DNA of 49,744 bases from Bacteroidales bacterium (lineage in GTDB: Bacteria; Bacteroidota; Bacteroidia; Bacteroidales; Marinilabiliaceae): the NCBI GenBank assembly GCA_024401295.1, contig JAKSLG010000020.1, forward strand, positions 1 to 49,744, read 5' to 3'. The stretch's first letter is position 1. Each line of letters starts with the position of its first letter. Below, one piece after another: positions 1-36,544 of this stretch. A model generated the notes under the pieces. The model ran no database searches. It worked only from the letters and a program-made list of their open reading frames with translations, and was not told the DNA's origin. Position numbers and translations under genes: made by a program.

Positions 1-65
1 GTGATTTTTTTTGTCTAAAAAGACATGCATCGCTTCCTTAACATACTACTCCTATTCCTCCTCAC

Positions 66-94
66 GCAAGGCTGGAGCCTACGCCGAACGGGGG
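66..94 (+). repeat. Short GC-rich repeat module (GCAAGGCTGGAGCC...), left end of copy 1
   Basis: This 29-bp GC-rich module starts GCAAGGCTGGAGCC and ends in CGAACGGGGG. It recurs almost unchanged at 360-388 and 24768-24797, and in inverted orientation at 24473-24496. In copy 1 the two modules flank the larger repeat in direct orientation; in copy 3 they are inverted. It may be the end of another repeat copy lying left of the window. Confidence 0.75.
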
Positions 95-96
95 CG

Positions 97-388
97 TTTT
101 CTTACTTGGCCTTGTCTTCCATCTTCTGTGCCGACAGAAGACGGAAGCGAGAAGAACTCGTCGCAGAGAGCTGTCTCGCTAAAAAATCGTCTCACTCAGC
201 TACACGGCAAAAACTCGCTCCGCTCAGACATTTGCCGTGCTTAACGCTGATCTTACCGATTTTTTTTAACGCAAACAGCTCAAGGCGACTTTCATGGCTT
301 CGTTGAAGCCATTTTTGAAGGTGAGTTTTTGCTTAAAGCATATTCATTGTTATATTTGCGCAAGGCTGGAGCCTCGCCGAACGGGGGG
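97..388 (+). repeat. Dispersed intergenic repeat, copy 1 (promoter-ended)
   Basis: About 290 bp, nearly identical to 24506-24798 and, over its left two thirds, to 3457-3748. Internal structure visible in the sequence: a near-perfect 14-bp hairpin at 116-147 (CTTCCATCTTCTGT / ACAGAAGACGGAAG); an inverted pair CACGGCAAA (203-211) / TTTGCCGTG (231-239); a hairpin ATGGCTTC-gtt-GAAGCCAT followed by T's (294-316) that looks like a plus-strand terminator; and a promoter at 328-358. The open frames across it recur only because the DNA is repeated, and no known protein family is visible, so I treat it as non-coding. It encodes no transposase. It could be a MITE-like or REP-like element. Confidence 0.85.
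328..358 (+). promoter_or_regulatory. Bacteroidota promoter carried by repeat copy 1
   Basis: A -33 box TTTG (328-331), a 19-nt spacer and a -7 box TATATTTG (351-358) match the Bacteroidota primary sigma consensus exactly. Transcription would begin near 365, inside the short GC-rich module, and run into the small ORF at 404 and the gene at 496. The same promoter is present at the end of repeat copy 3. Confidence 0.75.
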
Positions 389-403
389 AATACGACAACA
401 ATC

Positions 404-499
404 ATGGACTATGAAACGAAATATACCAGACATCGGAAGTTTTTTTACAAAAAACAGATAAACAATATTTATAATAAGCACAAGGCGGTAAACGAATGA
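404..499 (+). CDS. Small basic ORF, 31 aa, translationally coupled to the next gene
   Basis: ATG at 404 opens a 31-residue frame beginning MDYETKYTRHRKFF and ending YNKHKAVNE, rich in Lys, Arg, Tyr and Asn. Its stop codon overlaps the ATG of the next gene (ATGA at 496-499), the classic arrangement for translational coupling. It is the first ATG-started frame after the predicted transcription start near 365. No family is recognised. It may be a leader peptide that sets expression of the secreted protein downstream, or a chance frame; the ATGA overlap is the main argument for it. Confidence 0.4.
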   Translation: MDYETKYTRHRKFFYKKQINNIYNKHKAVNE

Positions 500-1569
500 A
501 AATGTATATGAAATCATTTTTTATAATCATTGTTTTGCTTTTTACGCCATATGTAAATGCGCAAGGACAAAATGTTGATGATATATTGAAAGAATGCCAA
601 GAAAAAAGAGAGCATGATAGAATGGTGCTTGACAATTACCGTAAAAGGCACAAATATATTGGGCAAGAGGAAATTTTTTGTGGAAATCAATTCATTACGT
701 TTAAATATATCGAAGATTCACTTTATCTAAAGCTCCAAGGCAAAGGCATTATGCCAGATTCCTCTATGCAAGTACGCATCCTTCAGCTTTTGAATAACGA
801 GTTCTATGAAGGGGAACTTGAAAAGCTAATAAATGACGAACTTAAATCTGATAAATATTCAGGATTGCCAGATAGCGTGTTAAGTATAAAAAAAATAGAA
901 TTAAAAGAAATATATAGTTCTGAATTGCCACGATATAAAAAACACATGCTAATAAAGGCTTGTGAGCTATTAGACAATAAATTAATACTCAAACGAATAG
1001 AAGAACTATACAAAGATTCTAAATATGCTGATTTAAAAAAAGAGTTGTTGGATTGTCTACTCTTAGGTCGTGTTGAACCATATACGACAGATTGTTTAAG
1101 AGATTCGAAATACAAACCATGCTTGTCTGGAGAAGAGCAGTTTTATAATATCAAGCATTTAGAATATATATATACTCAAGAGTCATTTCGGGAAATAGCA
1201 GAATATTTATTTTCTAAGGCGTATTGGGAAGATCATATAATGGATGATATTAGTTTGATAGATACTATTAATAGTCTGCAAGAGAGTGACAGAATAATAG
1301 AGGATTTTGAGGAGGATTTTGAGCTAATATTGGAGGATGATATAATCCCTAAACATCACGAAAAAATCAGGTATAATTACTACTATGCCTATGCTTTTAG
1401 GATAATTGAATCTGCTATATCTAATGATGGTTTTTATGCAATGTTGGCGAAGTTAGATATTAATTCAGAAGTAGAAGATACATTGCTTACATTGGAAAAG
1501 CGTCGTCAGATATATAGATGGATGAAGAAAAACTACGGAAAGTATAAGTTACGAAAGCGATGGAAATGA
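496..1569 (+). CDS. Secreted protein of unknown function, 357 aa
   Basis: The protein begins with a clear signal peptide (MKMYMKSFFIIIVLLF, cleavage likely after VNA near residue 23) and has no lipobox, so it is probably periplasmic or secreted. The mature part is charged, rich in Lys, Glu, Tyr and Ile, and looks mostly helical, with repeated leucine/lysine-rich segments between residues 90 and 250. I recognise no domain or catalytic motif. The gene is visibly AT-rich compared with the operons at 4-23 kb, which suggests acquired DNA. It sits alone between the promoter-bearing repeat and the convergent hipA gene, and its start codon overlaps the stop of the 31-aa ORF. ATGs at 502 and 508 are alternative starts. 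Confidence 0.75.
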   Translation: MKMYMKSFFIIIVLLFTPYVNAQGQNVDDILKECQEKREHDRMVLDNYRKRHKYIGQEEIFCGNQFITFKYIEDSLYLKLQGKGIMPDSSMQVRILQLLNNEFYEGELEKLINDELKSDKYSGLPDSVLSIKKIELKEIYSSELPRYKKHMLIKACELLDNKLILKRIEELYKDSKYADLKKELLDCLLLGRVEPYTTDCLRDSKYKPCLSGEEQFYNIKHLEYIYTQESFREIAEYLFSKAYWEDHIMDDISLIDTINSLQESDRIIEDFEEDFELILEDDIIPKHHEKIRYNYYYAYAFRIIESAISNDGFYAMLAKLDINSEVEDTLLTLEKRRQIYRWMKKNYGKYKLRKRWK

Positions 1570-1693: not shown

Positions 1694-2821
1694 CTACTTG
1701 ATTCTAATTCTGTTCAAAAGCAGGTCGTCGCAGTTCTGATAGACCTCATCAAAGATTTCGCGACAACGTTTTTCGTTCATCTTGATTTTGAGTCCAACGG
1801 CAATGAAGTCTTGAAGGGTGGGATAGCCAGTAGAATTGACCGATGTGGCGTGCTGACCACTATAGCCTTCATTGCATAGAGTAAGATCGTATGCCGGTGC
1901 CAAGTGCCAGATGAATTTGCCACTTGAATCTTTGCCGACAAAGTAACTGAAGTTTTTGCAATGGTCATCCTTGTTGTCTGTAAGGTAGTTGAATACCATG
2001 CGACGGTACATCTCTTCAACATACTTTGTATTTTGAGTAATGTAGCCTGTTAATGCAAGCAAGTTGCTATAGTCGAGCACTGGCTCTGAAAGAGAAAGAC
2101 AGAGTAAGCCACCAGCAGTTGCTGTGTGGATTCGCTCACCTTCGGTTGTGAGGTCGAATCGTTTTGTTGTAAAGTACTTTCCATTAGTCAGCTTGAAGTC
2201 AGGTACATCAATACCACACTTACGTGCTATCTCATTATAGTGATACTCCTGTAGTCCCATGTCTTTGGGATCGTATGTATGTCGAAACTTCACGAGCCAA
2301 TGACCTTCTGCATCAGAGAATATGGCCTTTGGACGGCAACCGCCACTGTTGCCGCTGTTGTACAATAGGAGTCCTGCGTCTGTATCCTGTTGCTCTTTGA
2401 GGACTTCCAACGCCTTCTTCTGGAGCAAGTCGAAGTCTAAAATATCTTCTCTTGTTAAAATGAATGTCTCTGGTTCATACGTCAACGCTCCCATGCCGCT
2501 ATTGCCTACAATGCTCAGTCGCTCGATGGTAGTAAGGTTTCTGTCATCGACACCTTCACGCATTAATGTTTTATGAAGCAGATAGCGACCATAGCCGTCG
2601 GGAAGGCTGTCTTCAAAGATTCCAAAGTCGCCATAAAGTGGTGTTGGCTTTGCAAGGAACAGACCAGTCTTCAATGGAAGTTCTAAAGGAGAAATGCTGA
2701 ATTCTTCAGCAAGCCAGCGAGGATCGTATTCGAATGCCAGACGTTTATTGTCTGGTGTCATTGAGATCACGCCTACAGTATCTCCGTGATATTTTACTGT
2801 TAGCCTATCTATCTTGTTCAT
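1694..2821 (-). CDS. hipA: HipA-family serine/threonine kinase (toxin of a type II toxin-antitoxin pair)
   Basis: HipA kinases phosphorylate cytoplasmic targets (glutamyl-tRNA synthetase in E. coli) and cause growth arrest. The 375-aa protein has the HipA N-terminal subdomain (residues 1-120, with GDFGIFEDSLPDGYGR at 64-79), a Ser/Gly-rich loop GNSGGCRPK (157-165) in the region of the E. coli auto-phosphorylation site, a kinase Lys in WLVKFR (175-180), the catalytic loop DDHCKN (285-290, Asp285 the likely catalytic base) and the metal-binding Asp312 in LAPAYDLT. All key residues are present, so it should be active. Its start overlaps the stop of the upstream antitoxin gene by 4 bp, giving a tightly coupled hipBA unit. 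Confidence 0.93.
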   Translation of the reverse strand: MNKIDRLTVKYHGDTVGVISMTPDNKRLAFEYDPRWLAEEFSISPLELPLKTGLFLAKPTPLYGDFGIFEDSLPDGYGRYLLHKTLMREGVDDRNLTTIERLSIVGNSGMGALTYEPETFILTREDILDFDLLQKKALEVLKEQQDTDAGLLLYNSGNSGGCRPKAIFSDAEGHWLVKFRHTYDPKDMGLQEYHYNEIARKCGIDVPDFKLTNGKYFTTKRFDLTTEGERIHTATAGGLLCLSLSEPVLDYSNLLALTGYITQNTKYVEEMYRRMVFNYLTDNKDDHCKNFSYFVGKDSSGKFIWHLAPAYDLTLCNEGYSGQHATSVNSTGYPTLQDFIAVGLKIKMNEKRCREIFDEVYQNCDDLLLNRIRIK

Positions 2822-3168
2822 GATAAATTCGTATTGCTTTTTACTTTATGAGCTCTGTTTTTCCCTGTATTCTTGCGTATTTGAGTAAGCTCTTCCATCG
2901 TTGAATATTTGGGTTCTGCAAAGATGCTCTTCACCTCCGAGGTGTATTCTAAAGCCATGGCAATTCCTATCAGATTTTTCAATGAAATAAGACCTTTCTG
3001 TTCGAATCGCACGATGTTTGCTAAAGCTACACCAGACTTTTCCGCTATCTGTTCGCGTGTCAGGTTCTTTTCTATACGACGCTTGCGGAAGTCGTCAGCA
3101 ATGGTCTTGGCGATGCTTTCAGCATTGTCAAGTGTATAGTTTTCTAATATTGATAATATGTTATTCAT
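2818..3168 (-). CDS. hipB: HipB-like XRE-family antitoxin/repressor
   Basis: The 116-aa protein carries one Cro/C1-type helix-turn-helix (about residues 28-75, core LTREQIAEKSGVALANIVRF). It lies directly upstream of hipA with a 4-bp overlap. In this family the antitoxin binds HipA, neutralises it and represses the shared promoter. The last 35 residues are basic and may be disordered. A palindrome between the predicted -7 box and the start codon (3182-3202) is a plausible operator for it. It is longer than E. coli HipB (88 aa). Confidence 0.9.
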   Translation of the reverse strand: MNNILSILENYTLDNAESIAKTIADDFRKRRIEKNLTREQIAEKSGVALANIVRFEQKGLISLKNLIGIAMALEYTSEVKSIFAEPKYSTMEELTQIRKNTGKNRAHKVKSNTNLS

Positions 3169-3456: not shown

Positions 3457-3748
3457 GTTTTCTTACTTGTTCATGTCTTCCATCTTCTGTGCCGACAGAA
3501 GACGATCTGACTTTTTCTTCATTAGCTTACGCTCAGTTTCGCAGTTCCTGTTCATTTCTTCTTTGCACCGGTCAAAGAAGAAACCGAACCAAAGAAGAAA
3601 CCTCGTCGCAGAGAGCTGTCTCGCTAAAAAATCGTCTCGCTCAGCTACACGGCAAAAACTCGCTCCGCTCAGACATTTGCCGTGCTTAACGCTGATCTTA
3701 CCGATTTTTTTTAACGCAAACAGCTCAAGGCGACTTTCATGGCTTCGT
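3457..3748 (+). repeat. Dispersed intergenic repeat, copy 2 (internal insertion, no promoter end)
   Basis: It matches copies 1 and 3 from TTTTCTTACTTG through CATGGCTTCG, but carries about 73 extra bases after the first hairpin (about 3504-3600, a stretch rich in CTTC and GAAGAAA). It stops at 3748, before the terminator-like hairpin, the promoter and the GC-rich end module of the other copies. It lies between the hipBA promoter region and the terminator of the tolC operon. Confidence 0.8.
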
Positions 3749-24277: not shown

Positions 24278-24472
24278 ATATTATCAGTACATCTTCCAAT
24301 GATGCGATAGTTTTCTCTATGGATTATTCATGGGAAAACACCAGATCGATATCGCATCTTCTCTCGAACGGATCTCGAAGGCATCCCGAAGGATTGCCAT
24401 AGTTCATTTCGCTGAGACCGCCCTCCTTTTCCATCGTTATTTTTATCCTCTAAGTTGTGAGTGGCAAGTTTG
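24278..24472. other. Intergenic stretch left of repeat copy 3
   Basis: No recognised gene except a possible 36-codon minus-strand frame (24324-24434) listed separately. On the minus strand TAATATTTG near 24281 is one base off the -7 consensus and might serve the small gene at 23828-24193. Nothing else is supported. Confidence 0.4.
24324..24434 (-). CDS. Possible small ORF, 36 aa
   Basis: ATG at 24434 opens a frame beginning MEKEGGLSEMNYGNPSG and ending DIDLVFSHE, with AGAGG 12-13 nt upstream. It has two Cys, Pro-Ser-Gly turns and a balanced charge, unlike random AT-rich frames. No family is recognised and no promoter of its own is clear. It may be a remnant or chance frame. Confidence 0.25.
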   Translation of the reverse strand: MEKEGGLSEMNYGNPSGCLRDPFERRCDIDLVFSHE

Positions 24473-24496
24473 TTCGGCGTAGGCTCCATGCCTTGC
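24473..24496 (-). repeat. Inverted copy of the short GC-rich module
   Basis: Reverse complement of the GCAAGGC(A)TGGAGCC module found at 66-94, 360-388 and 24768-24797, with one inserted base. With the module at 24768 it gives copy 3 inverted-repeat ends, whereas copy 1 has direct-repeat ends. Confidence 0.75.
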
Positions 24497-24505
24497 TTGC
24501 TTCAT

Positions 24506-24798
24506 CTTCTTGCTTGATCATGTCTTCCATCTTCTGTGCCGACAGAAGACGGAAGCGAGAAGAACTCGTCGCAGAGAGCTGTCTCGCTAAAAAATCGTCT
24601 CACTCAGCTACACGGCAAAAACTCGCTCCGCTCAGACATTCGCCGTGCTTTACGCTGATCTTACCGATTTTTTTTAACGCAAACAGCTCAAGGCGACTTT
24701 CATGGCTTCGTTGAAGCCATTTTTGAAGGTGAGTTTTTGCTTAAAGCATATTCATTGTTATATTTGCGCAAGGCTGGAGCCTACGCCGAATGGGGGGG
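24506..24798 (+). repeat. Dispersed intergenic repeat, copy 3 (promoter-ended)
   Basis: Almost base-for-base the same as 97-388: the first hairpin, the CACGGCAAA inverted pair, the terminator-like ATGGCTTC hairpin, the promoter and the GC-rich end module are all present. The few differences include TTCGCCGTGC for TTTGCCGTGC and CTTTACGC for CTTAACGC. Conservation across 24 kb of unrelated sequence shows a genuine family of elements. Confidence 0.85.
24736..24766 (+). promoter_or_regulatory. Bacteroidota promoter carried by repeat copy 3
   Basis: TTTG (24736-24739), 19-nt spacer, TATATTTG (24759-24766): identical to the promoter in copy 1. It reads toward the 52-aa ORF, the FISUMP lipoprotein and the peptidase gene. 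Confidence 0.75.
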
Positions 24799-24907: not shown

Positions 24908-25066
24908 ATGGGGAAGGTGACAAAACGACCTGTTGGCGTGAAAACGTTTATGAATGCAGACAATCTGCCTACGACAGCCAAAGGCGCTTATCCTTTGTTG
25001 TTTAAGCACACTCTGCCTGGAAAGAATAAAACGACAAGTGAATATAAAATGAATATTAATTTATAA
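24908..25066 (+). CDS. Small ORF of unknown function, 52 aa
   Basis: ATG at 24908, product begins MGKVTKRPVGVKTFMNADN and contains LPTTAKGAYPLLFKHTLPG; basic, no signal peptide. The codons look coding-like (varied third positions, no poor-codon runs), and the stop lies 13 bp before the lipoprotein ATG. It may be a real small protein or a fragment of a larger lost gene. A longer version from a GTG at 24833 is less likely. Confidence 0.4.
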   Translation: MGKVTKRPVGVKTFMNADNLPTTAKGAYPLLFKHTLPGKNKTTSEYKMNINL

Positions 25067-25079
25067 ATTATATATAATC

Positions 25080-26546
25080 ATGAAAAAATTAACTAAGGTT
25101 TTAGCGTCTGCCATTGCAATGCTTTATATTCTGACCCCTGTAGGATGTAAGGAGGAATCTGAACCAAGTAATATTCCATCTATTCCAACTGAACTTAATT
25201 TGGAAGATGGTGCTGTTATAGAAGAAACAGAAATAACACTTTCGGCTTCGGGTAGTATTGTAGAAAATGAAAACTACAACCTGAGATATCGGATTTACTG
25301 TGGAACTTCAGTTGATAACATGCAAGAATTTAATGTGGATTCCGAAATAGAATTACAGCCATATACTCAGTATTTTTGGTGTGCAAAGGGAGTAGCGTGG
25401 TCCGGAGACGTAAAAGAGTATTCCGAAGCATCTGATATACGCACATTCTATTGTGTTCCGCCAGTTGAAGTCGAAACTGACAATGGAGATGGTAATTGGG
25501 CTGCTGTTGTCAGATTTAAGGGTTTGAAGGATGTAATCAAAAAGGGAAAGGTTGCAATTACCCCAGACAAGAAAGGATATCCATATCAAGCAGAACTAGA
25601 GTTGGCGGAAGGGCAGGATTCGTGCTATCTACAACTTGGTAATTCACATAATCCTACTAATGCTGCATATACACATTGGTGGGATGACGAAAAGAATATT
25701 TTCTACGAGCCAATAATATATGATTTTGATATATCACTGGATTTAAAGGTAGGCGATAAGATTTTTACTGTTACCAACAAGGCGAGAGAGATTATTCTGG
25801 ATAAAAGTTCGTGTGCCCGAGATATTGACTTTAATGTTTATCGATTGATAAAGATAGGTAATCAGACATGGATGGCTGAAGATTTTAGAGCGAAAAGTGT
25901 TGTTTATAATGGAAAGACATATTCGTTAGATGACATTGATTATTGGGATAAAAAGTACACACCTTATAGGATAGTAACTTTAAATTCAGGTGCTCAAGGT
26001 GTTATATATTTTTATAAACCTTATTTTAGTAGTTCTTCAAAGTTTGGTGATGGAACAGGAATTGATGCAAGATATATAATGGAAGGCGCTGTTCCCAAAG
26101 GTTTTCATATTCCTACATTTGAGGACTGGGCTGAGTTAGAGTCGTTTTATGGAGTGTCTAATCCTGAGCTATTATATGATACTGATATTTATCCATATGA
26201 CTATATGAATCCTTATAAACATGATTATTATTTAAGAATTGGTTTGTATGATGATTTTGTCGGAAATGAAACAAATATTCGTGCTAAGATGTCTTTGAAT
26301 AATGACGATTGGATCGGATTAGATGAGGAGGATAAAGAATACGAGGGTTATCAATCCCTATTTAATGCAAAACCTTTTGTGGGTGAAGGGTATGGATGTA
26401 CATATATGACAAAGGTATCCGATGAGGACTACTATTCTTTTGTCGTTTTGTCATCGTATAGCAAAGGCATTGCAAATCCTTATGGCAAATTAAGTTATTT
26501 GGATACTCAAACGACTTATACTTCCATAAGATTGATTAAAGATTAA
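25080..26546 (+). CDS. FISUMP-domain surface lipoprotein
   Basis: 488 aa. A lipoprotein signal peptide with lipobox TPVGC (Cys23), followed by Glu/Ser residues. Residues about 35-130 look like a fibronectin-type or Ig-like module (LNLEDGAVIEETEITLSASG, QYFWCAKGVAW). The second half has the Fibrobacter-succinogenes-major-paralogous (FISUMP) pattern: IKIGNQTWMAEDFRAK, then VPKGFHIPTFEDWAELESF, and a C-terminal SIRLIKD in place of the usual VRCIKD. These lipoproteins are usually outer-membrane and their function is not established. The gene is AT-rich and lies downstream of the repeat-borne promoter. Confidence 0.88.
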   Translation: MKKLTKVLASAIAMLYILTPVGCKEESEPSNIPSIPTELNLEDGAVIEETEITLSASGSIVENENYNLRYRIYCGTSVDNMQEFNVDSEIELQPYTQYFWCAKGVAWSGDVKEYSEASDIRTFYCVPPVEVETDNGDGNWAAVVRFKGLKDVIKKGKVAITPDKKGYPYQAELELAEGQDSCYLQLGNSHNPTNAAYTHWWDDEKNIFYEPIIYDFDISLDLKVGDKIFTVTNKAREIILDKSSCARDIDFNVYRLIKIGNQTWMAEDFRAKSVVYNGKTYSLDDIDYWDKKYTPYRIVTLNSGAQGVIYFYKPYFSSSSKFGDGTGIDARYIMEGAVPKGFHIPTFEDWAELESFYGVSNPELLYDTDIYPYDYMNPYKHDYYLRIGLYDDFVGNETNIRAKMSLNNDDWIGLDEEDKEYEGYQSLFNAKPFVGEGYGCTYMTKVSDEDYYSFVVLSSYSKGIANPYGKLSYLDTQTTYTSIRLIKD

Positions 26547-36513: not shown

Positions 36514-36544
36514 TTTGTCGATGCAACTTTTTTAACTAATTTTG
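36514..36544 (+). promoter_or_regulatory. recJ promoter
   Basis: TTTG (36514-36517), 19-nt spacer, TAATTTTG (36537-36544): an exact consensus promoter. Transcription would start near 36551, 29 nt before the recJ ATG, and may continue through pepP, ppx and the response regulator. Confidence 0.75.

Follow-up and report, generated by a model that had tools for sequence, protein, structure and literature searches.

A mosaic intergenic hairpin repeat of Bacteroidales with a promoter-like end on a minority of its copies

The 49,744-nucleotide stretch of Bacteroidales DNA analyzed here (the window), which corresponds to contig C13 in a draft assembly of 2.30 Mb and 75% completeness, contains two nearly identical copies of a repeat, each bearing a promoter-like string that points outward at a neighboring gene. 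A first-pass annotation of the sequence took this arrangement for a portable expression cassette, with a terminator for insulation followed by a fresh promoter. The locus raises the question of what the repeat is in general and of what part the promoter plays in it. The general part of the repeat proved to be a nested hairpin core of 136 nucleotides, and the coordinates of this and other features are given in Table 1.

Table 1 Features of the repeat copies and adjacent genes in the window
Feature	Positions	Strand	Remarks
Border repeat upstream of copy 1	65-94	+	Fused palindrome GCAAGGC..GGAGCCTACGCCGAAC
Repeat copy 1	97-388	+	Type I core, promoter-bearing
Hairpin 1 of copy 1, version A	115-147	+	TCTTCC..TCTGT-GCC-GACAGA..GGAAG
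Nested hairpin core, copy 1	154-289	+	Model R2, 140.6 bits
Small hairpin, copy 1	294-312	+	ATGGCTTC-GTT-GAAGCCAT; weak terminator candidate
Promoter-like string, copy 1	328-358	+	TTTG-N19-TATATTTG
Border repeat, downstream end of copy 1	359-388	+	
Gene downstream of copy 1	496-1569	+	357 amino acids, hydrophobic NH2-terminus, G+C 0.313, no Pfam match
Repeat copy 3	3457-3748	+	Hairpin 1 version C, no promoter end
Core, copy 3	3599-3734	+	Model R2, 136.3 bits
Border repeat upstream of copy 2	24472-24498	-	Inverted relative to the downstream one
Repeat copy 2	24506-24798	+	Type I core, promoter-bearing
Core, copy 2	24562-24697	+	Model R2, 137.9 bits
Small hairpin, copy 2	24702-24720	+	ATGGCTTC-GTT-GAAGCCAT
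Promoter-like string, copy 2	24736-24766	+	TTTG-N19-TATATTTG
Border repeat, downstream end of copy 2	24767-24797	+	
Gene downstream of copy 2	25080-26546	+	Fib_succ_major domain (PF09603), G+C 0.354

The near-identity of copies 1 and 2 noted at first pass was confirmed, with 97% identity across 291 bases (97-388 aligned with 24507-24797) and the promoter-like string present in both. A BLAST search of the own genome with the repeat yielded 39 matches, many of which are pieces and many of which are broken at module edges. Copy 3, which had been described as lacking exactly the promoter end, does lack the promoter, but it resembles copy 1 in part only (BLAST similarity at 3458-3504 and 3593-3748, corresponding to positions 1-47 and 54-207 of the repeat), with a different hairpin in between, and 18 of the 22 cores surveyed in the genome are also without a promoter. 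Comparison of 25 copies or fragments, all turned to the same orientation, revealed the module order, from 5' to 3', of border palindrome, hairpin 1, core, optional small hairpin, tail, and border palindrome. The small hairpin sits between two GCGACTTT-like repeats, and the tail is either the promoter segment or one of several alternatives. Hairpin 1 occurs in six stem versions next to a nearly unchanged core, and a chimera at C39:4043 combines the left arm of one version with the right arm of another. A second core type (type II) of the same plan is present in five copies of the genome. In a census of 22 of the 23 model matches in the genome, which left out one match as well as three incomplete copies at the ends of contigs C2, C6, and C18, the small hairpin accompanied 13 cores, a hairpin with a T run 7 cores, and the promoter 4 cores. 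The presence of copies at many sites together with their near-identity suggests recent spread. Given that no clean empty site was found at aspS or beside a C39 copy, where the neighbor differs in the congeners read, we infer movement from copy number only.

To describe the core we used a covariance model, R2, of 136 positions and 36 pairs, which was trained on 10 sequences from four genomes. The model matched 58 of 119 sampled Bacteroidales genomes at E values of up to 0.001 (8 of the 15 of the genus, including the own genome, 46 of other genera of the family, and 4 of other families of the order), with the E values being rough, the weakest genomes possibly matching by chance, and the sample being weighted toward the family of the window. 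Congeners share the plan of the core and have very different stems. In alignment A3, which comprises 33 hits from 29 loci and, being aligned to the model, leans toward its structure, 81.2% of cells pair and two-sided changes occur at 29 of the 36 pairs, a number reached by 1 of 500 shuffles. The covariation score of 0.515 compares with 0.143 for shuffles, none of 500 of which reached it, and with at most 0.176 for slid structures; the count of pair types was equalled by 26 of 500 shuffles, and both it and the number of two-sided changes, the cruder measures, are less decisive than the score. The training set itself scored 0.404 versus 0.146. The core stems thus vary widely between species yet stay paired. 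Many A3 cores appeared by eye to consist of a GCTAAAA-helix-TTAACGC unit nested inside another of like kind. One Bacteroidales genome contains a head-to-tail array of four core copies (locus L092, G048:C1, 996-1635).

A functional RNA strand should tolerate G-U pairs but not A-C pairs, and we therefore counted both in the core stems. With the count restricted to pairs of 70% or more Watson-Crick, A3 (24 of 36 pairs) contained 722 Watson-Crick, 7 G-T, 14 A-C, and 27 other combinations, and the broader set A4 (27 of 36 pairs) contained 1060, 25, 20, and 118, respectively. The corresponding counts for all pairs were 910, 30, 56, and 165 for A3 and 1236, 62, 46, and 252 for A4. Eight distinct tRNAs from the same records, identified with ARAGORN, showed 153 Watson-Crick and 18 G-U pairs; because ARAGORN selects against mismatches, they serve as a fair control for the share of G-U alone. 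The core stems thus showed no RNA-type preference for G-U over A-C, and neither strand was preferred; the core folds well as DNA on both strands (z of -4.95 and -4.70). With G-T as rare as A-C, unlike the situation in tRNA stems, pairing therefore seems to be preserved either at the DNA level or on both strands. The low frequencies of G-T and A-C fit DNA hairpins or correction of one arm by the other, and RNA function on both strands would give the same result. For 18 cores both neighboring genes were in view; these genes are divergent at 6 cores, convergent at 5, and tandem at 7, as called by a codon-score script that missed the AT-rich open reading frame at 496-1569.

The promoter-like string TTTG-N19-TATATTTG, with an identical spacer, occurs at four exact sites in the genome (C13:328, C13:24736, C19:27529, and C36:79530). 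The pattern TTTG-N19-TANNTTTG is present three times in the window, the third at 36514-36544, compared with 0.15 expected from shuffles, with the strings in copies 1 and 2 counting as one event because the copies are homologous. The Bacteroides sigma consensus, as cited in PMC7366714, consists of TAnnTTTG at -7 and TTTG at -33, and the repeat end fits this sigma-ABfr consensus at both boxes. Judged from its sequence, it is probably a real and active promoter of the sigma-ABfr type. It follows a type II core on C19 and type I cores at the other three sites, and tails that are homologous but not identical lack the -7 box by eye. The promoter end is a variant borne by these four copies and, being the same in each of them, is probably young. 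Contrary to what had been supposed, the copies extend past the promoter; about 30 more shared bases (359-388) constitute a separate palindromic repeat, which is present at 65-94 as well.

The absence of the promoter from most copies, which the first-pass annotation had named as grounds for abandoning its reading, is what we found: 4 of 22 cores of the own genome and none of 32 cores from other genomes carry it. Within 200 bases downstream of the 33 model hits (29 loci), the perfect promoter occurred once, at the own-genome copy, compared with 0.06 expected, and upstream of these hits it did not occur. A looser pattern, TTG-N18-22-TAnnTTTG, was detected downstream of 2 of the 33 cores and upstream of 2, with 0.24 expected downstream, the only side shuffled; some promoter-like sites therefore flank cores elsewhere, as they do other intergenic DNA. 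The perfect promoter was absent from all 24 of the 36 listed congener border repeats that were read, and the exact promoter-border string had no match in the collection of genome contigs. It is plausible that one sublineage of the repeat carries an outward promoter.

The hairpin that had been read as a terminator directly before the promoter is present, but it lies 15 bases from the -33 box and has just four T residues after its stem. A terminator scan did not call the hairpin at 294-312, whose T run forms a bulge within a longer stem when folded. The insulation proposed for it draws slight support from the T-run hairpin, which is found on 7 of the 22 cores, 3 of these 7 being without the promoter.

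The claim that the promoters face acquired, AT-rich genes holds for two of three such genes (G+C of 0.313 and 0.354, with values of 0.43-0.56 over most of the window's first 30 kb) but not for the gene at the C36 copy, which has an ordinary G+C of 0.529, encodes a Por_Secre_tail-domain protein, and has a nearer TATATTTG box. At the C19 copy, the contig ends before a downstream gene is visible. The gene downstream of copy 2 has by eye a closer promoter-like site, TTGG-N19-TATCTTAG, and is followed by one for an M1-peptidase-like protein. A short frame of about 50 codons at 24909-25067, between copy 2 and the gene at 25080, is by eye possibly a remnant, and a HipA-type kinase gene with an HTH_3 partner occupies 1694-3168, between copies 1 and 3. 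Downstream of eight promoter-less copies, five genes appear to encode secreted proteins, as judged by eye from their NH2-termini, and the products there include an HU protein, part of a pyruvate:ferredoxin oxidoreductase, GH43, SLT, C1 peptidase, and AAA_14 proteins, and a BspA-type repeat protein. Given such variety, no special class of downstream gene is evident.

The border repeats, which are palindromic, are found on their own as well. They form inverted pairs in several copies (for example, at 24472 and 24777), and the upstream one is in the other orientation in three of the four promoter copies. The border palindrome is also present in the congener G011 (L299, L307, and other loci), a genome without a core hit, and it therefore looks like an independent repeat; two further matches to the border pattern, in G001 and G002, appear by eye to be chance occurrences within coding sequence. 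Border repeats also form three inverted pairs with a spacing of 1.4-2.5 kb, between which lie a nitronate monooxygenase-like gene, part of a PLP enzyme, and other frames, with no recognised transposase inside any of the three. In other genera (L082, L088, L089, L091, and L099), the core is flanked by ACTATTGTCCGG-like and CCGGACACCAGTG-like sequences, which by eye are possibly MITE terminal repeats.

The repeat belongs to a broad hairpin-element family for which Rfam and literature searches provided no name. Rfam gave no match for the whole window at the gathering threshold and nothing convincing at relaxed E values for 500 bases of the window and six loci. RAGATH-36 was dropped, with 21 bits against a cut-off of 70, and attC sites and retron stems were considered and set aside. 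The window repeat matched nothing in phage and plasmid collections, nor did a Bacteroidales relative among plasmids or a Haemophilus relative among E. coli genomes; a Variovorax relative matched two plasmid records, with no annotated feature beneath the match. Literature searches for the apex sequence, intergenic repeats and hairpins, and mobile promoters did not find the element, but they covered few subscription journals, so that novelty is not implied. Mobile promoters are repeats able to place a promoter before a gene, and the present repeat is like them in promoter placement, with the difference that the promoter is not its constant part.

Among modular repeats of Bacteroidales that have promoter activity, the BrickBuilt MITE of Porphyromonas gingivalis comes nearest; as described in PMC4596501, it is likewise intergenic, non-coding, modular, and multicopy, and its promoter activity was demonstrated there by lacZ fusion in E. 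coli. BrickBuilt is described as having a 23-nucleotide direct repeat and IS-like ends, whereas the present repeat is built on a nested hairpin core and most of its copies are without a promoter, and it is by these descriptions that we set the two apart. For mosaic palindromes, the nearest elements are REPs and BIMEs with GTAG or CGTC palindromes, described in PMC3733652 as short intergenic palindromic units that are often combined, those of the CGTC type having no dedicated transposase. REPs are palindromes of 20-40 bases with a four-base GTAG or CGTC tag, whereas the present core is nested, is 136 nucleotides long, and has a conserved apex of 20 nucleotides; in addition, no Y1 transposase (RAYT, PF01797) was found in the own, 75%-complete genome. 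Given that size, tags, and transposase do not fit, the repeat is not a proven REP. It shares with MITEs the traits of being short, non-coding, multicopy, and intergenic, and no target duplication was seen by eye at the flanks of copies. In its behavior it is REP/BIME-like or MITE-like, and it is a proven member of neither class.

We consider it somewhat better than an even bet (a probability of about 0.55) that the repeat is a mosaic, non-coding, intergenic DNA-hairpin repeat whose pairing is kept at the DNA level and whose promoter end is a by-product variant. The constant part is the 136-nucleotide nested quasi-palindrome with its nearly fixed apex, around which small hairpin modules and the separate border palindrome are shuffled; recombination or template switching where short sequences are shared is the most likely cause. 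The family and its copies, their mosaic build, the covariation, and the scarcity of wobble pairs are observed, whereas the mechanism at the DNA level and the manner of spread are inferred. Pairing may be maintained because a single-strand or cruciform hairpin is recognised by a host or transposition factor, or because template switching in replication corrects one arm from the other, or both, rather than through an RNA of one strand. The promoter end could drive a neighbor wherever it landed, as a by-product and not as the defining job of the element. We think it unlikely that the repeat is instead kept as an expression cassette, for insulation by its terminator and activation of newly acquired genes by its promoter. 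The promoter is credible and beyond chance, it is co-oriented with the downstream gene in all three promoter copies in which one is visible, two of these genes are AT-rich with signal-like NH2-termini, and the BrickBuilt elements of P. gingivalis drive lacZ (PMC4596501). However, the promoter is borne by 4 of 22 cores, by 0 of the 24 congener border repeats read, and by 0 of 32 hits in other genomes, the gene next to the third promoter copy is of ordinary composition and has a closer box of its own, and the downstream gene is co-oriented at 11 of 16 type I cores, which is near chance (the open reading frame at 496-1569 being substituted for the script call). The first-pass annotation had seen something real and had taken the rarest part of the repeat for its purpose.

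That the core is transcribed and works as a structured non-coding RNA or bidirectional terminator, on one or both strands, would explain its strong covariation, its strong RNA folding on both strands, and the position of 5 of 18 copies between convergent genes. The position of 6 of 18 copies between divergent genes, however, disfavors a plain terminator, G-T is overall no commoner than A-C, compared with G-U at 18 of 171 tRNA pairs, and Rfam offered no match for the window at the gathering score and none convincing at relaxed limits, so that an RNA appears to us improbable. We are similarly doubtful that the repeat is a classical MITE, with the border repeats as terminal inverted repeats on which a DDE-type transposase acts in trans. 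It is small, non-coding, and multicopy, several copies have inverted border repeats on both sides, and other genera show the different paired end-like sequences ACTATTGTCCGG and CCGGACACCAGTG; the borders, on the other hand, also stand alone and occur in the core-less G011, the upstream one is flipped in three of four promoter copies, target duplications were not seen by eye, and the three inverted border pairs enclose ordinary or unrecognised genes without a recognised transposase.

The DNA-hairpin reading directs attention to the apex of the core, AACTCGCTNCGCTCAAACAG, a sequence of 20 nucleotides with 19 fixed bases that is nearly fixed in the core; the exact form is absent from the own genome, in which the apex differs slightly. 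Simple arithmetic gives a chance expectation of about 2 matches in 257 billion bases on two strands, and a scan yielded at least 117 stretches containing 125 apex sites, with Bacteroidota, Haemophilus, Variovorax, clostridia, Patescibacteria, Treponema, and others among the matches listed (80 titles). Of the 112 sites far enough from the end of the record, 79 fold with a z below -2 in 140 bases, compared with 9 of 112 controls located 1.5 kb away, and 33 do not fold at this level. A small upstream hairpin was seen by eye in the same place at 9 of 14 apex loci read. For 55 of the listed 117 loci, the model gave 59 matches at E values of up to 0.01, with scores outside Bacteroidota of at most 59 bits, mostly 24-46, and with the apex itself having been the selection criterion. 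In an even, phylum-wide draw, the exact apex was present in 7 of 395 genomes, at 22 sites, compared with 0 for the control. Given these modest scores outside Bacteroidota and the 7 of 395 genomes, common descent across phyla is a proposal. We put forward tentatively, with the odds somewhat against it, that a DNA hairpin family spans Bacteroidales, Haemophilus, Variovorax, clostridia, and Patescibacteria, in which stems drift freely while the AACTCGCTNCGCTCAAACAG apex and often the small upstream hairpin are kept, the reason being a widely conserved factor that binds single-stranded or cruciform DNA, recognises the apex, and spreads the element or makes use of it.

No recurrent specific protein was encoded near the apex among 484 open frames within 2.5 kb at the listed 117 loci. 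The largest similarity group of neighbors covered six loci, and the two members tested were ABC ATPases, a common family; groups of three reflected Haemophilus synteny or similar. One contig contains a local cluster of eight exact apex motifs in about 78 kb (G356:C2:303157-381379). Inverted pairs of apex hairpins about 200-250 bases apart were observed in Haemophilus (L136, L176, and L126), Bacteroides (L174), and Variovorax (L110), both hairpins lying between the same two genes at the three Haemophilus loci.

Intergenic repeats have usually been described one species at a time, whereas here one structural model joins repeats with divergent stems and ties them together across about half of the sampled, family-weighted Bacteroidales, and the occurrence of the apex in other phyla suggests a connection with these. 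What recognises the apex is a testable question, and the promoter riding on the repeat in one lineage provides a natural experiment in the change of gene expression by repeat insertion.
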